Positions 24,725 through 33,681 of a stretch of 43,330 bases of DNA are shown piece by piece (within the stretch, counting starts at the first letter, position 1; every line of letters starts with the position of its first letter). The notes under the pieces are model-generated. The model saw only the letters and a list, made by a program, of their open reading frames with translations. It made no database searches and had not been told where the DNA came from. The stretch comes from Gammaproteobacteria bacterium. Its GTDB lineage: Bacteria > Pseudomonadota > Gammaproteobacteria > Steroidobacterales > GCA-2729495. A program made the translations under genes and the position numbers. The stretch spans positions 1-43,330 of the forward strand of contig SHZI01000011.1 of the NCBI GenBank assembly GCA_009692345.1, in the 5' to 3' direction.

Positions 24725-25591
24725 CTACTTCAACAGCGTCATGTGGTCCTGGATGAACTGTGTGACTGACGTCGGCTCGCGACCGATCAGCCTTTTGAAG
24801 GTATCAGTCGTGTGCTCCAGGCCCGTTTCCGCAATTTCCCGGAACAGTTCGCAGACGGCATTCAGGTGCCAGGGCTCCAGAACCCCGGTCATCCGCGCGC
24901 GAAACTGGTCCATGGGCATCGGCACGTACTCGACCTTCGCACCCAGGACTGCAGTAAAGCGCTCTGCCACGGCATGGAACGTCAGCACCTCCGGACCGGT
25001 GATCTCGTAGCTCTGCCCGGCATGACCCTTCCCGGCCGGCCCCGGGCCGGTCAGAACTTCAGCGCATACCGCACCGATGTCCCGAATGTCCGCCATGCCA
25101 GTAGTCCCGTTACCCATCGGCAGGGAGAACCTGCGATTCGTCCTGATGCCGGCGGCACTGGCGAGCAGGTTCTGCATGAAGAAGTTCGGCTTGATCATGG
25201 TCCAGGCCAGGCCCGAGGCGCGGATGTACTCCTCCGCGGCCCAGTGGGCCCGGGGAATGGGCGTCTCCGCGTGAGCGACCGCTTCCATCGAGGACATCTT
25301 CACCAGGTGTTTGACCCCGGCAGCCACCGCCAGGTCCGTGAACTGCTTTTCCTGCTCCAGCTGGTGCTGGCCGTTTGGCAGGGTCAGGAACGCCTTCTCA
25401 GCCCCCTTGAGTGCGCGTTGCACGGTGTCCGCATCGGACACGTCACCCACCACCAGCTCCACGCCGGCAGCCTTCAGGTCCGCTGCCTTCGACTCGTCCC
25501 GGACCAGCGCCCGCAACCGGGCACCCTTCTGCAGCAGTTGCTGCGCCGTCTCCCCACCGGTCTTCCCGGTGACCCCCGTGAGCAAAATCAT
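24725..25591 (-). CDS. NmrA/QOR2-like NAD(P)-binding oxidoreductase
   Basis: The 288-residue protein is an atypical SDR. It has a canonical loop MILLTGVTGKTGGETAQQL, then RALVRDESKAADLKAAG, VVGDVSDADTV, and the KHLVKMSSMEA strand typical of NmrA and quinone oxidoreductase 2-like proteins. No YxxxK motif is obvious. It begins 20 bp after the small-subunit gene of the transhydroxylase-like enzyme, so it is probably the last gene of that operon and might reduce a quinone-like product. That role is inference. Confidence 0.88.
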   Translation of the reverse strand: MILLTGVTGKTGGETAQQLLQKGARLRALVRDESKAADLKAAGVELVVGDVSDADTVQRALKGAEKAFLTLPNGQHQLEQEKQFTDLAVAAGVKHLVKMSSMEAVAHAETPIPRAHWAAEEYIRASGLAWTMIKPNFFMQNLLASAAGIRTNRRFSLPMGNGTTGMADIRDIGAVCAEVLTGPGPAGKGHAGQSYEITGPEVLTFHAVAERFTAVLGAKVEYVPMPMDQFRARMTGVLEPWHLNAVCELFREIAETGLEHTTDTFKRLIGREPTSVTQFIQDHMTLLK

Positions 25592-25611: not shown

Positions 25612-26469
25612 CTAGGCGGTGGCCGCGAGGGTCAAGACCCCCAGATAGAGGCTGTCGTCACCGAGGCTGAATTGCAGGGCTGCCCGGCCCGCTGGGCCGG
25701 ACTGCACTTCCACCTCGTACTGGCCGCTACCTTTTCCGAGCTTGTCGAACTTGAACTCACCGAAGGTATCCGTCGTCGTCCGGGCCACCTCGCGGCCCTG
25801 AAGCTTCAGCACGACTGCCGCGCCTTCGGCGCACTCCTCGACGCCCTTCACGTGAGTCACCACAGTGCCGCCGACCAGACAGCTGGTCATGAGGTGCAGG
25901 TTCTTGTAGTAGATGCGGGGCTTCGTGCCGAGTTCCGGCCGCAGCACTTCCAGGCCCTCCTCTGCCTGAAGCCGCTGCATCTCCCGGTCATCGACCTTGA
26001 CGGCCCGGAAGACATCGGTCGGACAGCTTTCCTCGGCCCGGGTCTTCGCCCAGCCCGTGTCCAGCAGATGCGCATCGAAAATCCAGGCCTGGGGCAGCTG
26101 CAGTTCCTCATTCCAGGAGACGGCACCGTAGGGGCAGGCCTCCACGATGGCCTTCTGCCCCCGGGCCTTTACGGGATCGATGATCACGATCCCGTCGGGC
26201 CGCTTCCTGATGGCGCCATTCTTCGCCGCCTGCATGCAGGGAGCATTGTCGCAGTGATTGCACATCACCGGCATGAAGTGCGCCTCCACAATGGGATAGC
26301 GGCCGCGCTCCTGGCGTTCGATCTCCAGCCAGTTGTGCCCCTGGGGCGGCTGGGGCGCCGCATAGCCCGGGAAGTCGTTGCCGATGTGCTCGTCCTTGTT
26401 GGCCAGGAAGCAGATGCGACAGTTATCGCATCGCGCCACATCGATGATCATGTTCCATTTCGCGGTCAT
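25612..26469 (-). CDS. Fe-S small subunit of transhydroxylase-like Mo enzyme
   Basis: This 285-residue subunit matches the pyrogallol-phloroglucinol transhydroxylase small subunit in layout. Cys14, 17, 20 (RCDNCRIC), Cys70, 73, 78 (CNHCDNAPC), Cys112 (EACPYGAVSWNEE) and Cys149 are kept. The segment KPRIYYKNLHL leads into a transthyretin/Cna-B-like C-terminal domain (GREVARTTTDTFGEFKFDKL). Compared with the Pelobacter subunit as I remember it, the four cysteines of one cluster are replaced (Asn24, Trp129, Asp132, Ala145). Two complete four-Cys sets remain. The ATG shares one base with the large-subunit stop (TGATG). Confidence 0.88.
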   Translation of the reverse strand: MTAKWNMIIDVARCDNCRICFLANKDEHIGNDFPGYAAPQPPQGHNWLEIERQERGRYPIVEAHFMPVMCNHCDNAPCMQAAKNGAIRKRPDGIVIIDPVKARGQKAIVEACPYGAVSWNEELQLPQAWIFDAHLLDTGWAKTRAEESCPTDVFRAVKVDDREMQRLQAEEGLEVLRPELGTKPRIYYKNLHLMTSCLVGGTVVTHVKGVEECAEGAAVVLKLQGREVARTTTDTFGEFKFDKLGKGSGQYEVEVQSGPAGRAALQFSLGDDSLYLGVLTLAATA

Positions 26470-29426
26470 CAGGCTGCCTCCACCGGCTTCCAGGTGTCCA
26501 CGCCGGTCCACTTCTCAAACTGGATCAGCGTAGTGTTCGGGCGGATACCGTGGCTTTTCGGCGTGATCGTCTTGCTGGGATTAAGCAGGTTGATACAGCC
26601 CCCCAGATCGGTCGACTTGCCGGGTTCACCGGCCGGCCGGTATTCGGCTGACGCCGGCGAAGCGCTGACGACACCCGGTCGCAGCCGGTCAGTAACCTGG
26701 GCCGCGCAGACCACGGAGCCCCGGACGTTCCAGAGCCGGATGAGATCGCCATCCCTGACCCCGCGAGCCTCCGCGTCCACCCGGCTGATCCGGGCCACGA
26801 GGTAGTAATGACCATCCACCTTGATGCGATGCTCACGGATATCACGCAGGGAACTGCCCTGGTCGTCTCCCATCAGGTGAAAAGGGTAGCGGGAGTGCGG
26901 CGACAGCAACTGCAACGAAAACCCTTCCAGGCCCTTGTCCCTTTTGCTGTCCTCATAGGTCGGAATGTACCTGTTCACCTGCGGCCGCTCAGGGTCATCG
27001 ATCCGGCCCAGCGTCTCCGGGACGAACTCGTACTTGCCCGACGGCGTCTGCAATCCGCCGCCGAAATCCGCCACATAGTCTGAGGGCAGCGGATAAGGCT
27101 CCGGCACATCCTTTTTCCGGCCCTCATAGAACCACTTGTAGGCGGTAGGTGCCCGGGAGGCCTCCGGCTCGGCAGGCACAACAAAGTAGCCCTTCTTCAG
27201 GAACTGCCGCCAGGAGATGTGCTTGGACACATCGGACGAATCGAAGACCCGCTTGCACCAGTCGAGCTCGGTGTTGCCGCCCTCCGAGTACACGGCGCCC
27301 ATGTCGAGCTTTTCCGCGATCGCCAGGAAAATGTCGTAGTCCGATTTGGACTCGCCCATGGGCTCGATGGCCTTGTGCTGCATGTTGATCACGCGGTGAT
27401 TGCACATGGAATACATGTGATGCACATAACCTGCGCCGACATTGAGTTCCTCGCTGATATCCCAGCGCTCGAACACCGTACACGCCGGCAGGATGACATC
27501 CGAGAACCGCGTCTCGCCCTCGTTCCAGACGGACTGGTTGACGACGAACTTCAGGTTTTCGTGCTGGTACATGCGCACCCAGCGATTCGCATTGACCATC
27601 GTCCCGAAGGAGGCGCTGCCGTACTTGTAGAGCATTTCCACCCGCGCGTGCCCCGGCGACGGATAGCCAAAGGGAAAGAACTGGCCCTGGACTGAGTCGA
27701 CCGCGGTCAGGTAGCCCATCGCCTTGCCATTCATGATGGCCTCCGGCAGGAATATCCGGGGGATCGCCTGTCTGACCGAACTCATGGTCACGATGTGGGG
27801 CATGCGCTGGTAGTTATTGGCCGCGTTGGCACTGTAGGCCAGATCGCCGGACATGCTGCCTTCGGCGTAGCCGGGGAAATAGAAATTGAAGTCGAGCGGC
27901 GTGCCGAACTGGAGGTTGCCAAAGTTGGAACCGGGCCTGCCAAGGCCCTGCATCGCACCCAGGATGGTCATCATCCGGGCCCACTGCACGCCCATGGGCC
28001 CGCGGCACGCGCCGCCAACGCCACTGCCCCAGCCACCGGCGCCGAGATAGGTTTTCTTGCGGCCCCATTCCCTGGCCAGCGCACGAACGTCCCGGGCGGG
28101 CACACCCGTTTCGGCCTCCTGCCACTCGGGAGTCTTCGGCGTGCCGTCGGTCTCGCCGAGCACGTAGGCCTTCCACTCATCGAAGCCCGTGGTTCTCTTC
28201 TCGACGAATGACTTGTCGTAGAGGTTCTCGGTGATCCAGACATGACACAGCGCCTGGGCAAACGCCGCATCAGTCCCCGGCTTTGGCGATATCCACTTGC
28301 CCCCGAGATGGGCTGCCGTGTGGTTCATGTAGGGGTCGATGTGCACCATCTTGATACCCAGCTCCTTGGCCCAGGCACGCCGCCGGGTTCCGTCAAAGCC
28401 GTAGGTGGCATCCGGATCACTGGACCAGAAGACGATCATCTCCGCCTCTTTGAGGCAGTCCTCCACCGTGCCGTAGGGCTCTGCGGCCCCGAGCCGCATG
28501 CTGTTGCCCCAGTGGTGCATGGCGCCCCAGAACCAGCCTTCCCAGCTGTCCGGGTTGTGCACCAGCTTCGTCACGCCGATCAGGTTCCAGAAGCGGTTGA
28601 AGGCACTCAGGTAATGACCCAGGTTGCCCCACTGATGGTGGGACCCGTTGGCCACCGCGACCGCGCCGGGACCCACCGCCTTGCAACGCTTGATCTCGCC
28701 GGCAACGATGTCGAGGGCTTCCTCCCAGCTGATCCGGACGAACTCCGACTTGCCCCGATTCTGGATATTGCGCTCACCGTGGGGATCGAAGTCCACGCGC
28801 TTCATCGGATAGAGAATGCGTTCCTTCGAGTACACCATGGACTTCTGGCACATGCCGTGGGCGGCCAGAGTCGTCTTGCGCGGCGGAGTAAAGGTCTTGC
28901 CGCGCGCCGTGATCGACCAGCCCTCCGCATCGTCGGCATCGAAGTCGATGGGCGTGGTCCGGATGATCTTGCCGTCCTTCACGTAGACAAAGAGCGGGCC
29001 GCCATTGGTGCCGTTGGTATAGCGGGTGACACCGCCACCCATGTCGGTGCCACTCTTCCAGGTCAGGGACTCCAGGCGCATGAGCGAGGACATGAACCAG
29101 ACGGCCAGGTCGTCCCGACCCTCCATGGACACCTTGAAATTCTTCGCCGCATCGATGCGCTCCAGCTGGTCGAAGGGCGGCGTCAGAAAACTCTCCGCGA
29201 TAGCCTTGTTCTTGAACACGATGGAGAGATCGGGGCTGGCGTGAATGCCGGCACTGGAGGTGATCTTGCCGTCCTTGAGCGTGATCCAGCGCCCTACCGG
29301 CCGGTCGCGCAGGCGAAACTGGGCAGTGAGGTTCTTTTCCTTCAGGCGGGCCGCGTAGGCGGGGTACACCAGTGCCGCCAGCCGCATGACCTGCGGTATT
29401 CCCCAAAAAATGATCGACAGCTTCAT
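26469..29426 (-). CDS. Mo-bisMGD large subunit, pyrogallol transhydroxylase-like, with N-terminal SCP2-like domain
   Basis: This is a 985-residue DMSO-reductase-family catalytic subunit. From about residue 130 it tracks the Pelobacter transhydroxylase: TNGTNGGPLFVYVKDGKII, TFTPPRKTT, GSHHQWGN (His263/264), NPDSWEGWFWG, then GNSMRLG with Ser309 as likely Mo ligand. Further matches are WSSDPDATYGFDG, FPGYAEGSMSGD with the active-site Tyr region and LSPHSRYPFHLMGD. There is no Fe-S Cys motif at the N-terminus and no twin-arginine signal, as in the cytosolic enzyme. Residues 1-125 are extra. RWITLKDGKIT, SPDLSIVFKNKAIAESFL and FKVSMEGRDDLAVWFM resemble an SCP2 lipid-binding domain. ATG 29426 has AGGAGA upstream. 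It probably shifts hydroxyls or hydroxylates an unknown aromatic or lipid-like substrate. Confidence 0.88.
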   Translation of the reverse strand: MKLSIIFWGIPQVMRLAALVYPAYAARLKEKNLTAQFRLRDRPVGRWITLKDGKITSSAGIHASPDLSIVFKNKAIAESFLTPPFDQLERIDAAKNFKVSMEGRDDLAVWFMSSLMRLESLTWKSGTDMGGGVTRYTNGTNGGPLFVYVKDGKIIRTTPIDFDADDAEGWSITARGKTFTPPRKTTLAAHGMCQKSMVYSKERILYPMKRVDFDPHGERNIQNRGKSEFVRISWEEALDIVAGEIKRCKAVGPGAVAVANGSHHQWGNLGHYLSAFNRFWNLIGVTKLVHNPDSWEGWFWGAMHHWGNSMRLGAAEPYGTVEDCLKEAEMIVFWSSDPDATYGFDGTRRRAWAKELGIKMVHIDPYMNHTAAHLGGKWISPKPGTDAAFAQALCHVWITENLYDKSFVEKRTTGFDEWKAYVLGETDGTPKTPEWQEAETGVPARDVRALAREWGRKKTYLGAGGWGSGVGGACRGPMGVQWARMMTILGAMQGLGRPGSNFGNLQFGTPLDFNFYFPGYAEGSMSGDLAYSANAANNYQRMPHIVTMSSVRQAIPRIFLPEAIMNGKAMGYLTAVDSVQGQFFPFGYPSPGHARVEMLYKYGSASFGTMVNANRWVRMYQHENLKFVVNQSVWNEGETRFSDVILPACTVFERWDISEELNVGAGYVHHMYSMCNHRVINMQHKAIEPMGESKSDYDIFLAIAEKLDMGAVYSEGGNTELDWCKRVFDSSDVSKHISWRQFLKKGYFVVPAEPEASRAPTAYKWFYEGRKKDVPEPYPLPSDYVADFGGGLQTPSGKYEFVPETLGRIDDPERPQVNRYIPTYEDSKRDKGLEGFSLQLLSPHSRYPFHLMGDDQGSSLRDIREHRIKVDGHYYLVARISRVDAEARGVRDGDLIRLWNVRGSVVCAAQVTDRLRPGVVSASPASAEYRPAGEPGKSTDLGGCINLLNPSKTITPKSHGIRPNTTLIQFEKWTGVDTWKPVEAA

Positions 29427-29536: not shown

Positions 29537-30544
29537 TTAGAGAACCTGGAACACCTCCTGCAGTGCGCCGCTGCCCGGGTTGCGGACCAGCATGGACGCG
29601 CACTTGCCGCGGCCCGGCAGAGCGAGCGTCATCGGGGCCGTGTACACCTCGGCGCCCGCCGCCGCGCAGGCCCGGGCAGACTCGTCGATGCTGGCAATCT
29701 GGAACGACTGGGCGAGGTAACCGATATTGGGGGCTACCGCCTCGGGCACCAGGTTGGGGACCGTGTAGTTCATCGGCGTCGCCAGCGCGATCTTGCCGTA
29801 CTCGTGAGCGCCCTGGACGATCACGCTCCGGGTCTCGCAGTGCTCGGGGAGGCACAACGCGCGATTCGTCACCGGCCCCTTCAGCACAGATTCGATGAAC
29901 AACGACATGCGCAGCGGCCCGTAGTAGAAGGCGATGGCCTTCTCCATATCGAGCACGCCATGGGCAGTGGTCACCACCGAGGTGTAGCCGGTCGGCGTGC
30001 GCCCGTAGGTGGCGATGAAGGCGAGGATATGCCCGATGACCGTTTTCGGGTCTTCAGTGAGCAGCTGAATGAGGTTGATCACCACGCCATCCGGTCCATC
30101 GAAAGCAGCTTCAAGGGTCTCTCCCACGATCGGACCGAAGTTGTTCCGCGCGGGTTCGCTCCAGAATTTGAAGCCCTGGGCCTTGAGCTGCGCGAAGTCC
30201 TGCGCAATGTCGCTGGCATAGATGTTCAGATTGAACAGGCCCGTGGCGCGGCGAATCTCCGGCGGCCGGACCAGCTGGCGCTCCCGCGCTGAAAACTGCA
30301 TGAGCTGGATGCGGCCGACGGGGTCGGCGCCGTGGGCCAGAAAGGCACAGCGTGCGCTGGATCCTGCGGGGAGATGCCAGTAGCGCTCGAAGTCGGGACC
30401 TTCCCAGATGCTCGTCTCGACCACCGGCAGGCCCACCGTACCTGAATAAAACCCGAGGGACGCGTCGAGATCCCGGGCGCCGATGACCACGGCGCTAACT
30501 GGCACACTGACCATCGCGGCGGCGTTGCTTGCACTGCTGTTCAT
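29537..30544 (-). CDS. two-domain VOC (glyoxalase/dioxygenase superfamily) protein
   Basis: The 335-residue protein contains two vicinal-oxygen-chelate domains. The first begins VSAVVIGARDLDASLGFYSG and ends GVVINLIQLL. The second begins VVTTAHGVLDMEKAIAFYYG and ends GALQEVFQVL. The His ligands usually found at the first strand of each metal-binding VOC module are not visible at the expected places. Ring-cleaving dioxygenase activity is therefore not assured. ATG 30544 overlaps the chaperone stop as ATGA. Its place in the operon suggests it binds or transforms the substrate or product of the Mo enzyme. Confidence 0.82.
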   Translation of the reverse strand: MNSSASNAAAMVSVPVSAVVIGARDLDASLGFYSGTVGLPVVETSIWEGPDFERYWHLPAGSSARCAFLAHGADPVGRIQLMQFSARERQLVRPPEIRRATGLFNLNIYASDIAQDFAQLKAQGFKFWSEPARNNFGPIVGETLEAAFDGPDGVVINLIQLLTEDPKTVIGHILAFIATYGRTPTGYTSVVTTAHGVLDMEKAIAFYYGPLRMSLFIESVLKGPVTNRALCLPEHCETRSVIVQGAHEYGKIALATPMNYTVPNLVPEAVAPNIGYLAQSFQIASIDESARACAAAGAEVYTAPMTLALPGRGKCASMLVRNPGSGALQEVFQVL

Positions 30545-31281
30545 AATGAGTCTTCTGCTTTCGTTGGGGAGAGTGGGCTCGCGCCTGAAGGCGCTCCTGC
30601 GGCTTTATCGGTAATCGTGGCCAGCTGCCACTCACAGTCCGCCACCACGAAGTCCCGGACGGCCCTGACCACCCGGGCGTACAGGGAGCCAGCCGCCAGC
30701 TGGTCCGCGTTGTCAGCCAGCAGGGGCAGCCAGGCCGCCACATGCCGCCTGGCGAAGTCTGCCTGGGCGAGCTGAAACGACAGGGCATCAGCGTCGCTGT
30801 CCGCCTCTGCCTCGCGAAAGCACAGGTAGTGCATGAACTCGAGCTCGACGGACAGATGATCCGGCTGCCAGGCAAACTTGCCGTCGAGCACGTAGCCAAA
30901 GTACTCGTAGAAGCGGACCACCTCCTCCCGGGTTCCCGCGCGCTGACCACTTTGCAGGTCCTCGCGAATCGGGACCGGGGGCCCCTGGCTGCCCACCTCG
31001 AACATGCCGCTGTACTCGGCGCGCAATCGGGCCAGCTCGGCGCCACTGACCTCCGCAAGCAGGGCATCCAGATGGCTGGCGTGGGGCACCGCCTCCCCAA
31101 GGCCGATGCGCCCCCGCAAGGCGGCCCGGGGATCCAGGTCGTGGGGCGAGGCCACCAGCTCGGAGCAGGCGGCGTAGCACAGGCAGCGCAGACCGGCCGT
31201 GACGTCGGCCTGGCGGTCCACCACGATCCGGCCGGGCAGGGCCGGGTCGGGCGCCGTCGAAGTACTGGCAGAAATTTGCAT
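30541..31281 (-). CDS. TorD/DmsD-family chaperone for the Mo enzyme
   Basis: This 246-residue helical cytosolic protein has the TorD-family pattern. RLRAEYSGMFEVGSQGPPVP is followed by TREEVVRFYEYFGYVL, the hallmark PDHLSVELEFMHYLCF, and ADFARRHVAAWLPLL. Such chaperones hold a Mo-enzyme apoprotein until bisMGD is inserted, so it most likely serves the large subunit encoded two genes downstream. It is the first gene of the operon, ATG 31281. Its C-terminal tail (KAAGAPSGASPL) is encoded across a REP-like palindrome. It is divergent from moeA across about 70 bp. Confidence 0.88.
   Translation of the reverse strand: MQISASTSTAPDPALPGRIVVDRQADVTAGLRCLCYAACSELVASPHDLDPRAALRGRIGLGEAVPHASHLDALLAEVSGAELARLRAEYSGMFEVGSQGPPVPIREDLQSGQRAGTREEVVRFYEYFGYVLDGKFAWQPDHLSVELEFMHYLCFREAEADSDADALSFQLAQADFARRHVAAWLPLLADNADQLAAGSLYARVVRAVRDFVVADCEWQLATITDKAAGAPSGASPLSPTKAEDSL
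30578..30600 (-). repeat. REP-like palindrome inside the 3' end of the TorD-like gene
   Basis: The minus-strand reading is GCAGGAGCGCCTTCAGGCG and CGAG, with GCAG instead of GTAG. It is read through in frame and encodes the Ala/Gly/Ser/Pro-rich end of the chaperone. Confidence 0.8.
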
Positions 31282-31349
31282 AGGCAGGTCCAGTTCAGTG
31301 GGGTGCGGAGCAGCGCGGTGGGGTGCTCACAGTCTGGCAAGATACCGCG

Positions 31350-32582
31350 GTGATCTCCTACGCGGAAGCACTAGACCTCCTGCTGACCAGGATCGCCGTG
31401 CTGCCGGCCCGGACGGTGGGCCTGGCCGGCGCCTCCGGGGCGGTGACGGCCTCAGCCATTGCCGCCCGCCTGTCCGTCCCGGGTTTTGCCAACGCGGCCA
31501 TGGACGGCTATGCCCTGCACGCGGAAGCCAGCCGGGCAGCAAGCGCGGCTGCGCCGGTCGAACTGGCGGTTTCCGGGCTCATCGCCGCCGGAACGCCGGC
31601 ACCCCGGGTGCAGGCCCAGGAGGTCTGGGAGATCCTGACGGGCGCTCCGGTGCCCGACGGCCTGGATGCCGTCGTGCCGCTGGAGCGCGTCACGCGCCGC
31701 GACGGGCGGGACGGCACCGGTCCCCGGATCCTGATTTCCGAGCCCCTGCGGAGCGGCCAGAACATCCGCCAGGCTGGCGAGGACTTTGCGCGGGGCGAGA
31801 TCGTGGTAACGCGCGGCACGCGGCTGGGACCCCACCACGTGATGGGCCTCGCCGCCTGCGGTGTGGATGAACTGCCGGTCGTCCGGGCGCCACGGGTTGC
31901 GGTCCTGACCACGGGCAACGAATTGCGGGCCCAGGGGACGGACCTGGCGCCCGGCCAGATCCGGGATGCCAACGGCCCTTATTTACGCTCCCTGTTACCG
32001 CAGCTGGGTGCTGAACTGACCACGGTGACCACCGCGACCGACAGCGCCGCCCATCTCCGGGAACAACTGGAAGCGCTGGCGACCGGTGCCGACCTGGTGC
32101 TGACCACCGGCGGGGTCTCTGCCGGCCGGCTCGACCTGCTCCCCGCCGTGGTGCGCGAACTTGGTGGCGAGGTGCTGTTGCACAAGGTGGCGATCCGGCC
32201 GGGGAAGCCCCTCCTCCACGCCCGGCTGCCTGGCGGCGTTCTGCTGTTCGGCCTGCCGGGCAATCCGCTGGCGGTCGCGGTTTGCATGCGGTTCTTCGTT
32301 ATCCCGGCCCTCCGGGCGCTGCAGGGCCTGGCGGCGGAAGTCCCCCTGCCCGCCTTCACCACGGACGCCGTGCGCCGCCGGGGCGCCCTGCGCTTCTTCG
32401 CCAAAGCCGTCCTGGCGACGGATGCCACCGGCCAGCGACGAGTTCGGATTCTGCCCGGGCAGGAATCCTTCCGGATCGCGCCGCTGCTCAGCGCGAATTG
32501 CTGGGCCATCGTGCCCGAGGGCGACGGGGATATCCCGGCTGGCGGGCTCCTGGAAACCCTGCCTCTCTACCCGGACCTGTAG
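31350..32582 (+). CDS. moeA: molybdopterin molybdotransferase
   Basis: MoeA inserts molybdate into adenylated molybdopterin. The protein of about 410 residues shows ISYAEALDLLLTRI, VPGFANAAMDGYALHA, the IRQAGEDFARGE segment, VAVLTTGNEL, GQIRDANGPYL, the TTGGVSAGRLD substrate loop and LFGLPGNPLAVAV. I prefer GTG 31350 because the product then begins like other MoeA proteins; an in-frame GTG at 31323 is also possible. It is divergent from the TorD-like gene and convergent with mobB. This placement beside a Mo enzyme suggests dedicated cofactor supply. Confidence 0.94.
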   Translation: MISYAEALDLLLTRIAVLPARTVGLAGASGAVTASAIAARLSVPGFANAAMDGYALHAEASRAASAAAPVELAVSGLIAAGTPAPRVQAQEVWEILTGAPVPDGLDAVVPLERVTRRDGRDGTGPRILISEPLRSGQNIRQAGEDFARGEIVVTRGTRLGPHHVMGLAACGVDELPVVRAPRVAVLTTGNELRAQGTDLAPGQIRDANGPYLRSLLPQLGAELTTVTTATDSAAHLREQLEALATGADLVLTTGGVSAGRLDLLPAVVRELGGEVLLHKVAIRPGKPLLHARLPGGVLLFGLPGNPLAVAVCMRFFVIPALRALQGLAAEVPLPAFTTDAVRRRGALRFFAKAVLATDATGQRRVRILPGQESFRIAPLLSANCWAIVPEGDGDIPAGGLLETLPLYPDL

Positions 32583-32584
32583 GC

Positions 32585-32654
32585 GCGCCTTGTAGGAGCG
32601 CCTTGAGGCGCGATGCCGGTATCGATCGCGCCTCAAGGCGCTCCTACAAGGCGC
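32585..32654. repeat. paired REP elements forming a perfect 30-bp inverted repeat
   Basis: Arms 32585-32614 and 32625-32654 are perfect reverse complements around a 10-base loop, each carrying the TTGTAGGAGCGCCTTGAGGC unit. It fills the space between convergent moeA and mobB. The right arm supplies the mobB TAG stop. A strong hairpin here probably ends or stabilises both transcripts, although no T-run follows. Confidence 0.9.
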
Positions 32655-33165
32655 GGCGGGCCGGCAGGCCCACCGCTTCAAGGATGAAGTCTGCGATGCG
32701 GGCCACGTTGTCCCGCGCCAGCACGGGGAGCGTTTCGCCCGGCAACGGGGTATCGCTGACAATCGCCCGCACCCCCGGCGCGGCACCGGCAATGGCCGGC
32801 GCCGGCACCCCGGCGCGGCGGAGCTCCAGGCGGGGGTGAGCGCCGGACTTCCAGCCTTCGACCAGCACGAGATCCACACTCACGAGGCGGGCGATGAGTT
32901 CGTCAAGTCCGGGCGGGTTCTGGTCGCCGAGTTCGCGGATGTGGGCGACACGGCGCGCCGACGCCACGATGACTTCCGTGGCGCCGGCGGTCCTGTGCAG
33001 ATAGCTGTCCTTGCCCGGGTGGTCGATGTCGAAGTCGTGGTGCGCGTGCTTGATGGTCCCCACGCGCCACCCCCGGGACGACAGTTCCTGCAGCAGCGCC
33101 ACGATCAGCGTGGTCTTGCCCGAGTTCTTATACCCGGCAATGCCGAAGGCGGGCGGCTGCGGCAA
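32644..33165 (-). CDS. mobB: molybdopterin-guanine dinucleotide biosynthesis adaptor
   Basis: MobB is a GTP-binding helper of MobA in making bisMGD, the cofactor needed by the neighbouring transhydroxylase-like enzyme. The domain begins PPAFGIAGYKNSGKTTLIVA (P-loop). It continues with VGTIKHAHHDFDIDHPGKDS, RRVAHIRELGDQN and VLVEGWKSGAHPRLEL. The start is uncertain: TTG 33165, 5 bp after the HiPIP stop, fits the family N-terminus, while GTG 33198 would overlap the HiPIP end by 28 bp. The stop is the TAG in a REP arm. mobA is not in the window. Confidence 0.9.
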   Translation of the reverse strand: MPQPPAFGIAGYKNSGKTTLIVALLQELSSRGWRVGTIKHAHHDFDIDHPGKDSYLHRTAGATEVIVASARRVAHIRELGDQNPPGLDELIARLVSVDLVLVEGWKSGAHPRLELRRAGVPAPAIAGAAPGVRAIVSDTPLPGETLPVLARDNVARIADFILEAVGLPARRAL

Positions 33166-33170
33166 GCCGG

Positions 33171-33566
33171 TCAGGCCATCTTCACCCAGACACTGCACCA
33201 GCCTTTGGCCGCGACCAGCTTGCCAGGGAAGATGGCGCAGGGCCGGTAGGCATCGCCCACCTTGCCCTGGAGCTGGGAGCACTTGTCGCACTCCTGGCCG
33301 GGGGCGAAGCGCGCCGCCTGCGGGCTCTTGCGGTCAACTTTGGCGATGTTGTCCACGTAGCCGAGAGCCTTGGCGGAGGGATCTGACTCTTCAAGCCTGG
33401 GCAGCTTGGCCGGAGCAGCCTGGGCGGCAGCCTGGGCGGCAGCCTGGGCGGCAGCCTGGGCCGAGGCCTGATTGGTGACGACGGCATCCAGCAGCACGGC
33501 GCCGGCAGGGACCGCCAGGGCAACCTGGGCAAGAAAGCGACGCCGGCTAAGTTCGGGCTTGTTCAC
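33171..33566 (-). CDS. high-potential iron-sulfur protein, Tat-exported
   Basis: HiPIPs are small periplasmic one-electron carriers with a [4Fe-4S]3+/2+ cluster. This 131-residue precursor has a Tat signal (SRRRFLAQVALAVPAGAVLL). The four ligands are Cys93, 96, 110 and 124 in QECDKCSQLQG, YRPCAIFPGKLV and AKGWCSVW. Between signal and domain lies an AQAA tandem repeat. GTG 33566 is chosen because AAGGA lies seven bases upstream; the TTG at 33572 is less likely. It is transcribed with mobB. Whether it feeds the Mo enzyme, which looks cytosolic, is doubtful. Confidence 0.92.
   Translation of the reverse strand: MNKPELSRRRFLAQVALAVPAGAVLLDAVVTNQASAQAAAQAAAQAAAQAAPAKLPRLEESDPSAKALGYVDNIAKVDRKSPQAARFAPGQECDKCSQLQGKVGDAYRPCAIFPGKLVAAKGWCSVWVKMA
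33417..33461 (-). repeat. 12-bp tandem repeat in the HiPIP linker
   Basis: AGCCTGGGCGGC (plus strand) recurs about 3.75 times and encodes Ala-Gln-Ala-Ala units between the Tat signal and the HiPIP domain. Being a multiple of three, copy-number change would alter linker length without a frameshift. Confidence 0.85.
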
Positions 33567-33681
33567 GCGCAATTCCTTATGTCAGTGACTCGGTCGGACT
33601 AAGGGGGGAAGAGACGCTGGAAGTTTAGCAATCACCCACCTGTCGCGCACCTGAAGAAGTACCTGCTGCCTCACCCACCGG

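Follow-up and report, generated by a model that had tools for sequence, protein, structure and literature searches.

A transhydroxylase-like molybdenum enzyme with a predicted N-terminal SCP2 fold: a candidate O2-independent hydroxylase of hydrophobic phenols

Why should a molybdenum enzyme that resembles pyrogallol-phloroglucinol transhydroxylase begin with an SCP2-like domain, and what would such an enzyme act on? The question is raised by a gene in a 43,330-nucleotide stretch of gammaproteobacterial DNA (contig SHZI01000011.1 of assembly GCA_009692345.1, positions 1 to 43,330), referred to here as the window. An earlier reading made from the letters alone (the sequence-only reading) had placed the fusion at 26469-29426. 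Analysis of the open reading frame (ORF) confirmed these coordinates and the in-frame N-terminal extension: the gene for the large (alpha) subunit runs on the minus strand from an ATG at 29426 to a stop codon at 26471-26469, and AGGAGA lies 5 nt ahead of the ATG, as expected from the good ribosome site reported earlier. The features of this subunit are:

26469..29426, minus strand: large (alpha) subunit, an SCP2-transhydroxylase fusion of 985 residues (ORF, Pfam, match to 4v4c)
29046..29426, minus strand: predicted SCP2-fold N-terminal domain, residues 1-127 (weak Pfam matches in relatives, AlphaFold2 model, Foldseek, VIA)
28836..29000, minus strand: AhtL-like domain 1 (PF21423), residues 143-197, where the transhydroxylase-homologous part starts (Pfam)
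28545..28547, minus strand: S294 (in PDSWEG), equivalent to 4v4c S175 (alignment; Ser in 90 of 90 rows)
27867..27869, minus strand: Y520 (in FPGYAEG), equivalent to 4v4c Y404 (alignment; Tyr in 90 of 90 rows)

We propose, with a probability of roughly one in two, that the product hydroxylates or transhydroxylates hydrophobic phenols independently of O2, with the SCP2 domain capturing the substrate. The alpha subunit would be the large subunit of a cytoplasmic alpha-beta molybdenum enzyme of the RhL/PgtL (resorcinol hydroxylase / transhydroxylase) family, within a widespread branch whose members carry an SCP2 lipid-carrier fold at the N-terminus. The enzyme would add a hydroxyl group to a hydrophobic phenolic ring, or move one there, without O2; the SCP2 domain would take the substrate from the membrane or from lipid and either hold it or pass it to the molybdenum pocket, where the conserved Ser-Mo centre, together with His, Asp and Tyr, would perform the chemistry. 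Behind the proposal stand features that were computed directly: the order of the domains, an SCP2 fold predicted at the N-terminus, catalytic positions conserved in a changed pocket, the beta partner and, in cultured relatives, an alternation with flavin hydroxylases.

Residues 131-975 of alpha aligned with chain A of 4v4c, the solved pyrogallol-phloroglucinol transhydroxylase, over 845 residues (E 1.6e-279; 437 of 839 aligned residues identical), in line with the similarity over about 850 residues claimed previously. Pfam domains PF21423 (AhtL-like_1st; E 1.7e-28, starting at residue 143), PF00384 and PF01568 all scored above cut-off and give the order AhtL-like domain 1, then molybdopterin and dinucleotide-binding domains. 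The window protein, loci from other contigs and plasmid relatives were aligned with the 4v4c chain in 90 rows, which are not independent and include some near-copies. H144, S175, W176 and Y404 of 4v4c were unchanged in all 90 rows and D174 in 86; we take these five residues to form the active site, with S175 presumably the Mo-ligand serine. H263, D293, S294 and Y520 are the window equivalents of H144, D174, S175 and Y404. The FPGYAEG tyrosine had therefore been picked out correctly, whereas the serine of GNSMRLG had not: it is S309, which aligns with 4v4c S190. Positions 152, 153, 354, 468 and 557 of 4v4c, which we assume line the substrate pocket, are less constant. Throughout the window's own clade (74 of 74 rows) position 152 is His, and in all remaining rows it is Tyr; positions 354, 468 and 557 are also altered relative to 4v4c. 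Position 153 is Arg only in the aligned enzymes without the N-terminal domain (4v4c and the Bathyarchaeota locus L065; the partial L074 was left out of the alignment), and Tyr, Trp, Leu or, in two rows, His in the fused enzymes.

The adjacent small (beta) subunit had 4v4c chain B as its best solved match (E 5.6e-72), and a beta gene lay directly downstream of alpha in 61 of the 63 loci with room for it. Two loci, L058 and L069, encode an SCP2-fused alpha with no beta next to it at 1e-6. By its domain order, its Ser and His/Asp/Tyr positions and its adjacent PgtS-like small subunit, alpha belongs to the RhL/PgtL (AhtL-like) family, for which the consulted part of PMC10100899 gives serine as the type of Mo ligand.

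The sequence-only reading had ascribed SCP2-like character to about the first 125 residues, which structure prediction supports and the sequence barely shows. Residues 1-127 of the window protein gave no Pfam match up to E 1, SCP2 (PF02036) included; among 32 aligned members, nine matched Pfam SCP2 weakly in this domain (best E 0.0015) and four matched Alkyl_sulf_C. An AlphaFold2 model computed on the 32-member alignment (mean pLDDT 80.9) consists of two helices, four strands, two helices, a strand and a helix. Foldseek's first 36 rows for this model were all SCP2-type or alkylsulfatase-type proteins (SdsA1, Pisa1, YjcS), the latter aligned through their C-terminal part, with TM-scores by query length of 0.39-0.64; the best match was the UbiJ-SCP2 structure 6h6o (E 6.6e-6). 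VIA superposed the model on human SCP-2L with Z 12.3 and a root-mean-square deviation (rmsd) of 2.6 over 111 residues. Residues 1-127 are thus predicted to adopt the alpha-beta SCP2 fold over the whole domain.

In cultured relatives, an alternation of the fusion with flavin hydroxylases offers a direct route to its substrate. In Burkholderia stagnalis the gene order is TetR, VOC, FAH-family hydrolase, acyl-CoA synthetase, OmpW, alpha and beta. Burkholderia multivorans has a matching set (VOC 78%, FAH 76%, synthetase 75% and OmpW 49% identical), in which alpha is missing and a flavin monooxygenase gene stands between TetR and VOC. One plasmid of Cupriavidus oxalaticus carries two copies of the set, in which either alpha-beta (L144) or a flavin gene (L147) occupies the same place after the acyl-CoA synthetase, and a Paraburkholderia hospita cassette (L142) contains both the flavin hydroxylase and the Mo pair. 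The rhizobial version comprises alpha, beta, TetR, synthetase, two small VOC proteins, FAH and a Toluene_X outer-membrane protein, and in Agrobacterium larrymoorei a flavin enzyme accompanies a comparable set.

Of the 14 records matching FAH, the surroundings of the FAH gene or of the large subunit were read in 11 (all but H13, H21 and H23). In total 16 plasmid loci were read, and a gene counted as absent if tblastn at 1e-5 gave no match to it in the fetched stretch. Seven combine VOC and FAH with the flavin hydroxylase only and six with the Mo pair only (in one of which alpha is split), while one has both, one combines a flavin gene that is interrupted with a remnant of alpha (L140), and in one, from Salipiger (L134), the surroundings of the Mo pair are looser. 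The interrupted gene belongs to the second cassette of Paraburkholderia sp. PGU19 (L140:3808-14660), where about 3.4 kb separates the parts of the flavin hydroxylase gene and all that matches alpha is 26 residues from its start. The same strain's Mo-only cassette (L136:8407-10310) has an acyl-CoA synthetase match that falls in two pieces, with no gene listed there in the record.

In Burkholderiaceae and rhizobia, then, cassettes of the VOC-FAH-acyl-CoA synthetase kind carry, in alternation, the fused Mo enzyme or an MhpA/HbpA-type flavin phenol hydroxylase. Flavin hydroxylases of this type need O2 and NAD(P)H. The flavin enzyme of L137 scored above the cut-off of one MhpA-type subfamily model and had 2-hydroxybiphenyl 3-monooxygenase as its best PDB match, and the Burkholderia VOC protein of L132 matched extradiol dioxygenase models, below their cut-offs. 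On the strength of the alternation and of these matches, the Mo enzyme of cassette-bearing bacteria likely hydroxylates a substituted phenol that feeds ring cleavage, without O2 in that step, and whatever the cassettes degrade is likely its substrate in those bacteria. The OmpW or Toluene_X outer-membrane proteins and the acyl-CoA synthetase that adjoin alpha fit a hydrophobic substrate, and to this extent the hydrophobic substrate suggested earlier stands; for the sterol-like alternative suggested with it we found no direct evidence of a steroid.

GTDB contigs were scanned with six short patterns from the window protein, one of which lies inside the N-terminal domain. This gave 74 loci: 68 match from residue 1-6 onwards, in four (L037, L041, L046 and L052) the contig ends before the position of the domain, and in two, L065 (Bathyarchaeota) and L074 (Desulfobacteraceae), the domain is absent although there is room for it. 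Hence 68 of the 70 determinable contig loci are fused, a figure in which the share lacking the domain is biased by the search pattern inside it. Nine plasmid records matched at 1e-60, of which seven are fused, one is split by an insertion and one is annotated TorA; all eight plasmid relatives carry the domain, including the split gene of Sinorhizobium terangae, in which both parts are present. The inserted stretch of the latter (L135:10088-14562) holds an ORF of 366 aa. Whether close transhydroxylase homologues share this N-terminus, a point that the sequence-only reading had named as telling against itself, is thereby settled almost wholly against it: nearly all of those found do, and rarity of the fusion is not supported. 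By record title, the fused form occurs in Pseudomonadota, Acidobacteriota, Desulfopila, other deltaproteobacteria and Marinimicrobia, mostly in metagenome-assembled genomes, and it is the common architecture among the relatives found, in at least four phyla; the solved enzyme is an exception among them. One locus whose record title looks doubtful (L001, Rheinheimera tuosuensis) encodes a protein 98% identical to that of the window; its coordinates are shared by a genome (G034) that is assigned to the window's own genus. The Bathyarchaeota contig also encodes, on the opposite strand, a second, distant relative of the large subunit (L065:11478-12872; 27% identity).

In a midpoint-rooted tree built without the N-domain columns, the two rows lacking the domain shared a single branch (support 88), with the fused L068, L054 and L056 next to it. 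With a TorA outgroup and the N-domain columns included, they were nested among fused rows, at a point where long branches meet. Loss of the domain in the line of the Pelobacter enzyme is only suggested by these sequences and is uncertain because of those long branches.

Within the window, the fusion lies in a tight run of genes on the minus strand, flanked by genes for MoeA, MobB and a high-potential iron-sulfur protein (HiPIP):

24725..25591, minus strand: NmrA-family NAD(P)-binding protein; solved relatives include SimC7, YtfG and triphenylmethane reductase
25612..26469, minus strand: Fe-S (beta) subunit, 285 aa, overlapping alpha by 1 nt (TGATG); nearest solved chain 4v4c B
29537..30544, minus strand: two-domain VOC protein, 335 aa, directly upstream of alpha (Pfam, alignment, structure comparison)
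30541..31281, minus strand: TorD / DMSO-reductase-II-type chaperone, overlapping the VOC gene by 4 nt (Pfam)
31323..32582, plus strand: MoeA, molybdenum cofactor synthesis (Pfam)
32644..33291, minus strand: MobB, true start uncertain (Pfam)
33171..33572, minus strand: HiPIP with a TAT-type signal (Pfam)

The NmrA-family gene starts 20 nt past beta, and the spacing of the chaperone, VOC, alpha, beta and NmrA genes suggests that the run may form one operon. The nearby chaperone, MoeA and MobB genes support the reading of alpha as a Mo enzyme. The MobB and HiPIP reading frames (32644-33572) overlap at their ends. A VOC gene of the window type adjoins alpha in 14 of 58 loci with room for it and is nearby in three more. 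The window VOC protein is only 22% identical to its Burkholderia counterpart and had zero matches up to E 0.1 in a PDB sequence search; over the whole chain its structural matches include maize glyoxalase I (Z 24.3, rmsd 3.0, 256 residues aligned) and the 2,6-dichlorohydroquinone dioxygenase 4huz (Z 23.2, rmsd 2.9, 258 aligned).

Several results weigh against an O2-independent phenol hydroxylase with a lipid-binding domain, and they begin with the domain itself. The assignment of the SCP2 fold rests on a predicted model with weak support from sequence profiles: hhalign of the N-domain against UbiJ-type SCP2 domains gave 13%, compared with 6.5% over 19 columns for an unrelated control alignment, a profile search of PDB sequences with the domain returned nothing, and a PDB sequence search with the domain alone gave six matches up to E 10, none of them an SCP2 protein. 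Binding of a lipid ligand by this domain is putative. These results, together with the lack of a Pfam match in the window's own domain, are what could be said for an accidental resemblance and another role for the domain. We consider this very improbable, given the confident core of the model built from 32 relatives, the SCP2-type proteins among its top structural matches and the weak Pfam SCP2 matches in nine members.

A second difficulty comes from two deltaproteobacterial loci, L054 and L056, where a fused alpha adjoins Cyclase, cupin, SDR, 3-hydroxyacyl-CoA dehydrogenase (3HCDH) and BKACE genes (Pfam was run on the L054 members only). Apart from the cupin, these are the enzyme classes of the phloroglucinol degradation pathway as given in the consulted part of PMC10470551: SDR, cyclase, dehydrogenase and a BKACE-type lyase. 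Cyclase-cluster genes also lie a few kb from the fused alpha of Desulfopila (L068), and the 7.1-kb contig of L074, whose enzyme lacks the N-domain, encodes BKACE, dehydrogenase and cupin relatives, with no Cyclase or SDR among the neighbours listed. Judged from this context, the substrate at L054 and L056 is probably a small polar polyphenol, so that an SCP2 domain is no sure sign of a lipophilic substrate, and the domain by itself does not establish the hydrophobic substrate that the sequence-only reading had suggested from it. The SCP2 domain may then be only a structural or docking module on an enzyme for small water-soluble polyphenols like those of the Pelobacter enzyme, with phloroglucinol or hydroxyquinol as the product. 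We regard this as a possible, though clearly less probable, explanation. It gains from the 58% identity of L054 alpha to 4v4c, from an L054 beta that keeps all 12 presumed cluster cysteines, and from conservation, which in 83 of 83 comparisons with the window protein was lower in the N-domain than in the catalytic part. Almost every relative found has nonetheless kept the domain, even over long distances, pocket position 153 differs between fused enzymes and those without the domain, and outer-membrane proteins of the hydrophobic-uptake type adjoin alpha in cultured relatives. For the window's own enzyme, none of the 19 window ORFs run through Pfam, which include the immediate neighbours of alpha, was a phloroglucinol-cluster SDR, Cyclase, 3HCDH or BKACE gene.

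The window's own family presents a third difficulty, as the alternation with flavin enzymes was found in a sister branch at about 55% identity to the window protein, and the cassette is missing around the window's own gene. No match to the cassette FAH was obtained at E 1e-40 in 40 genomes of the family, in a search run without a positive control. A role of the window VOC as a canonical extradiol dioxygenase is not supported by its conserved residues, which, read by eye, do not show the His-His-Glu set, although its whole-chain structural matches include a hydroquinone dioxygenase. The alpha gene was found in 38 of the 40 family genomes and in 28 of 28 of high quality, with one match each except in G026 (two half-length matches on separate contigs), and in one of 398 genomes sampled across the phylum, the window's own. 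Its presence in every good genome of the family would suit a housekeeping gene better than an optional catabolic one.

Such a distribution is compatible with an enzyme that modifies an endogenous lipid without O2, for example the ring of ubiquinone or a precursor. UbiJ-type SCP2 domains, of which one was the top Foldseek match, presumably hold ubiquinone intermediates, and Peptidase_U32, the family of the known O2-independent hydroxylases UbiU and UbiV, was found in only five of the 40 family genomes. We nevertheless hold this explanation to be unlikely. The window genome encodes two UbiH/UbiI-type enzymes above cut-off and COQ7, which leaves no evident gap among the ring hydroxylation steps under air; a missing hydroxylase in its ubiquinone pathway is thus not supported. 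Relatives of the fusion include a sulfate reducer and Acidobacteriota, groups that use menaquinone, and cultured relatives keep the gene in catabolic-type cassettes. Across the family, COQ7 was found in 23 of the 40 genomes.

The fourth difficulty lies in the beta subunit. In an alignment of 72 beta rows, including PgtS and the window and again not independent, eight of the twelve presumed cluster cysteines of PgtS are kept throughout, and all twelve are kept in five rows only (PgtS, L054, L056, L068 and L065). The remaining 67 rows all lack equivalents of C23, C126 (Trp in every row) and C129 (Asp in every row), and 60 of them also lack C145; the window beta keeps eight of the twelve. From the usual ferredoxin ligand pattern, the four lost cysteines would belong to a single Fe-S cluster, in which case most fused enzymes should have a two-cluster beta. 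Such a loss would hamper the export of electrons, which a net hydroxylation needs, and its coordinated nature bears on the choice between internal hydroxyl transfer and electron export. A bolder variant would see in the fused enzymes a distinct class of Mo enzyme for phenols of the lipid phase. The SCP2 domain would ferry a phenol or quinone dissolved in the membrane, and the partly dismantled Fe-S wire of beta would leave a closed, redox-neutral hydroxyl transferase on lipids; in aerobes it would replace O2-dependent flavin hydroxylases, and in the window's family it would be a core trait acting on an endogenous lipid. In this complete form we consider it improbable.

Hydroxylation or hydroxyl transfer on hydrophobic phenols without O2 remains our preferred reading, for an enzyme whose fused architecture is genuine, is no rarity and belongs to a sub-branch of an established family. 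In that family, the characterised enzymes met in the consulted part of PMC10100899 are PgtL and RhL, the resorcinol hydroxylase of Azoarcus anaerobius, which is grouped there as RhL/PgtL; RhL is likened to the window alpha by family name only and not by sequence. Among the matches listed, the titles and abstract openings of open-licence literature held no description of a fusion of SCP2 with a Mo enzyme, and those on alkylresorcinol catabolism and resorcinol hydroxylase held no matching cassette. Compared with the PgtL/PgtS pair of 4v4c, the window enzyme has the same Mo subunit from domain 1 to the end, the same Ser-Mo and His/Asp/Tyr positions and a homologous small subunit. It differs in the 127-residue SCP2-fold domain predicted in front, which PgtL lacks, starting directly at the Mo domain as the sequence-only reading had stated; in five pocket residues (Y152, R153, W354, F468 and C557 of 4v4c are H, Y, V, T and V); and in a beta without four of the twelve presumed cluster cysteines of PgtS. 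The N-domain has the same predicted fold and order of elements as UbiJ, SCP-2L of MFE-2 and the C-terminal domain of alkylsulfatases, but it is only 7-19% identical to its matches in the first 28 VIA rows, has no Pfam match and stands N-terminally on a Mo enzyme. MhpA/HbpA-type flavin phenol hydroxylases, finally, belong to a protein family unrelated to the Mo enzyme, yet they swap with the Mo pair in otherwise similar cassettes.

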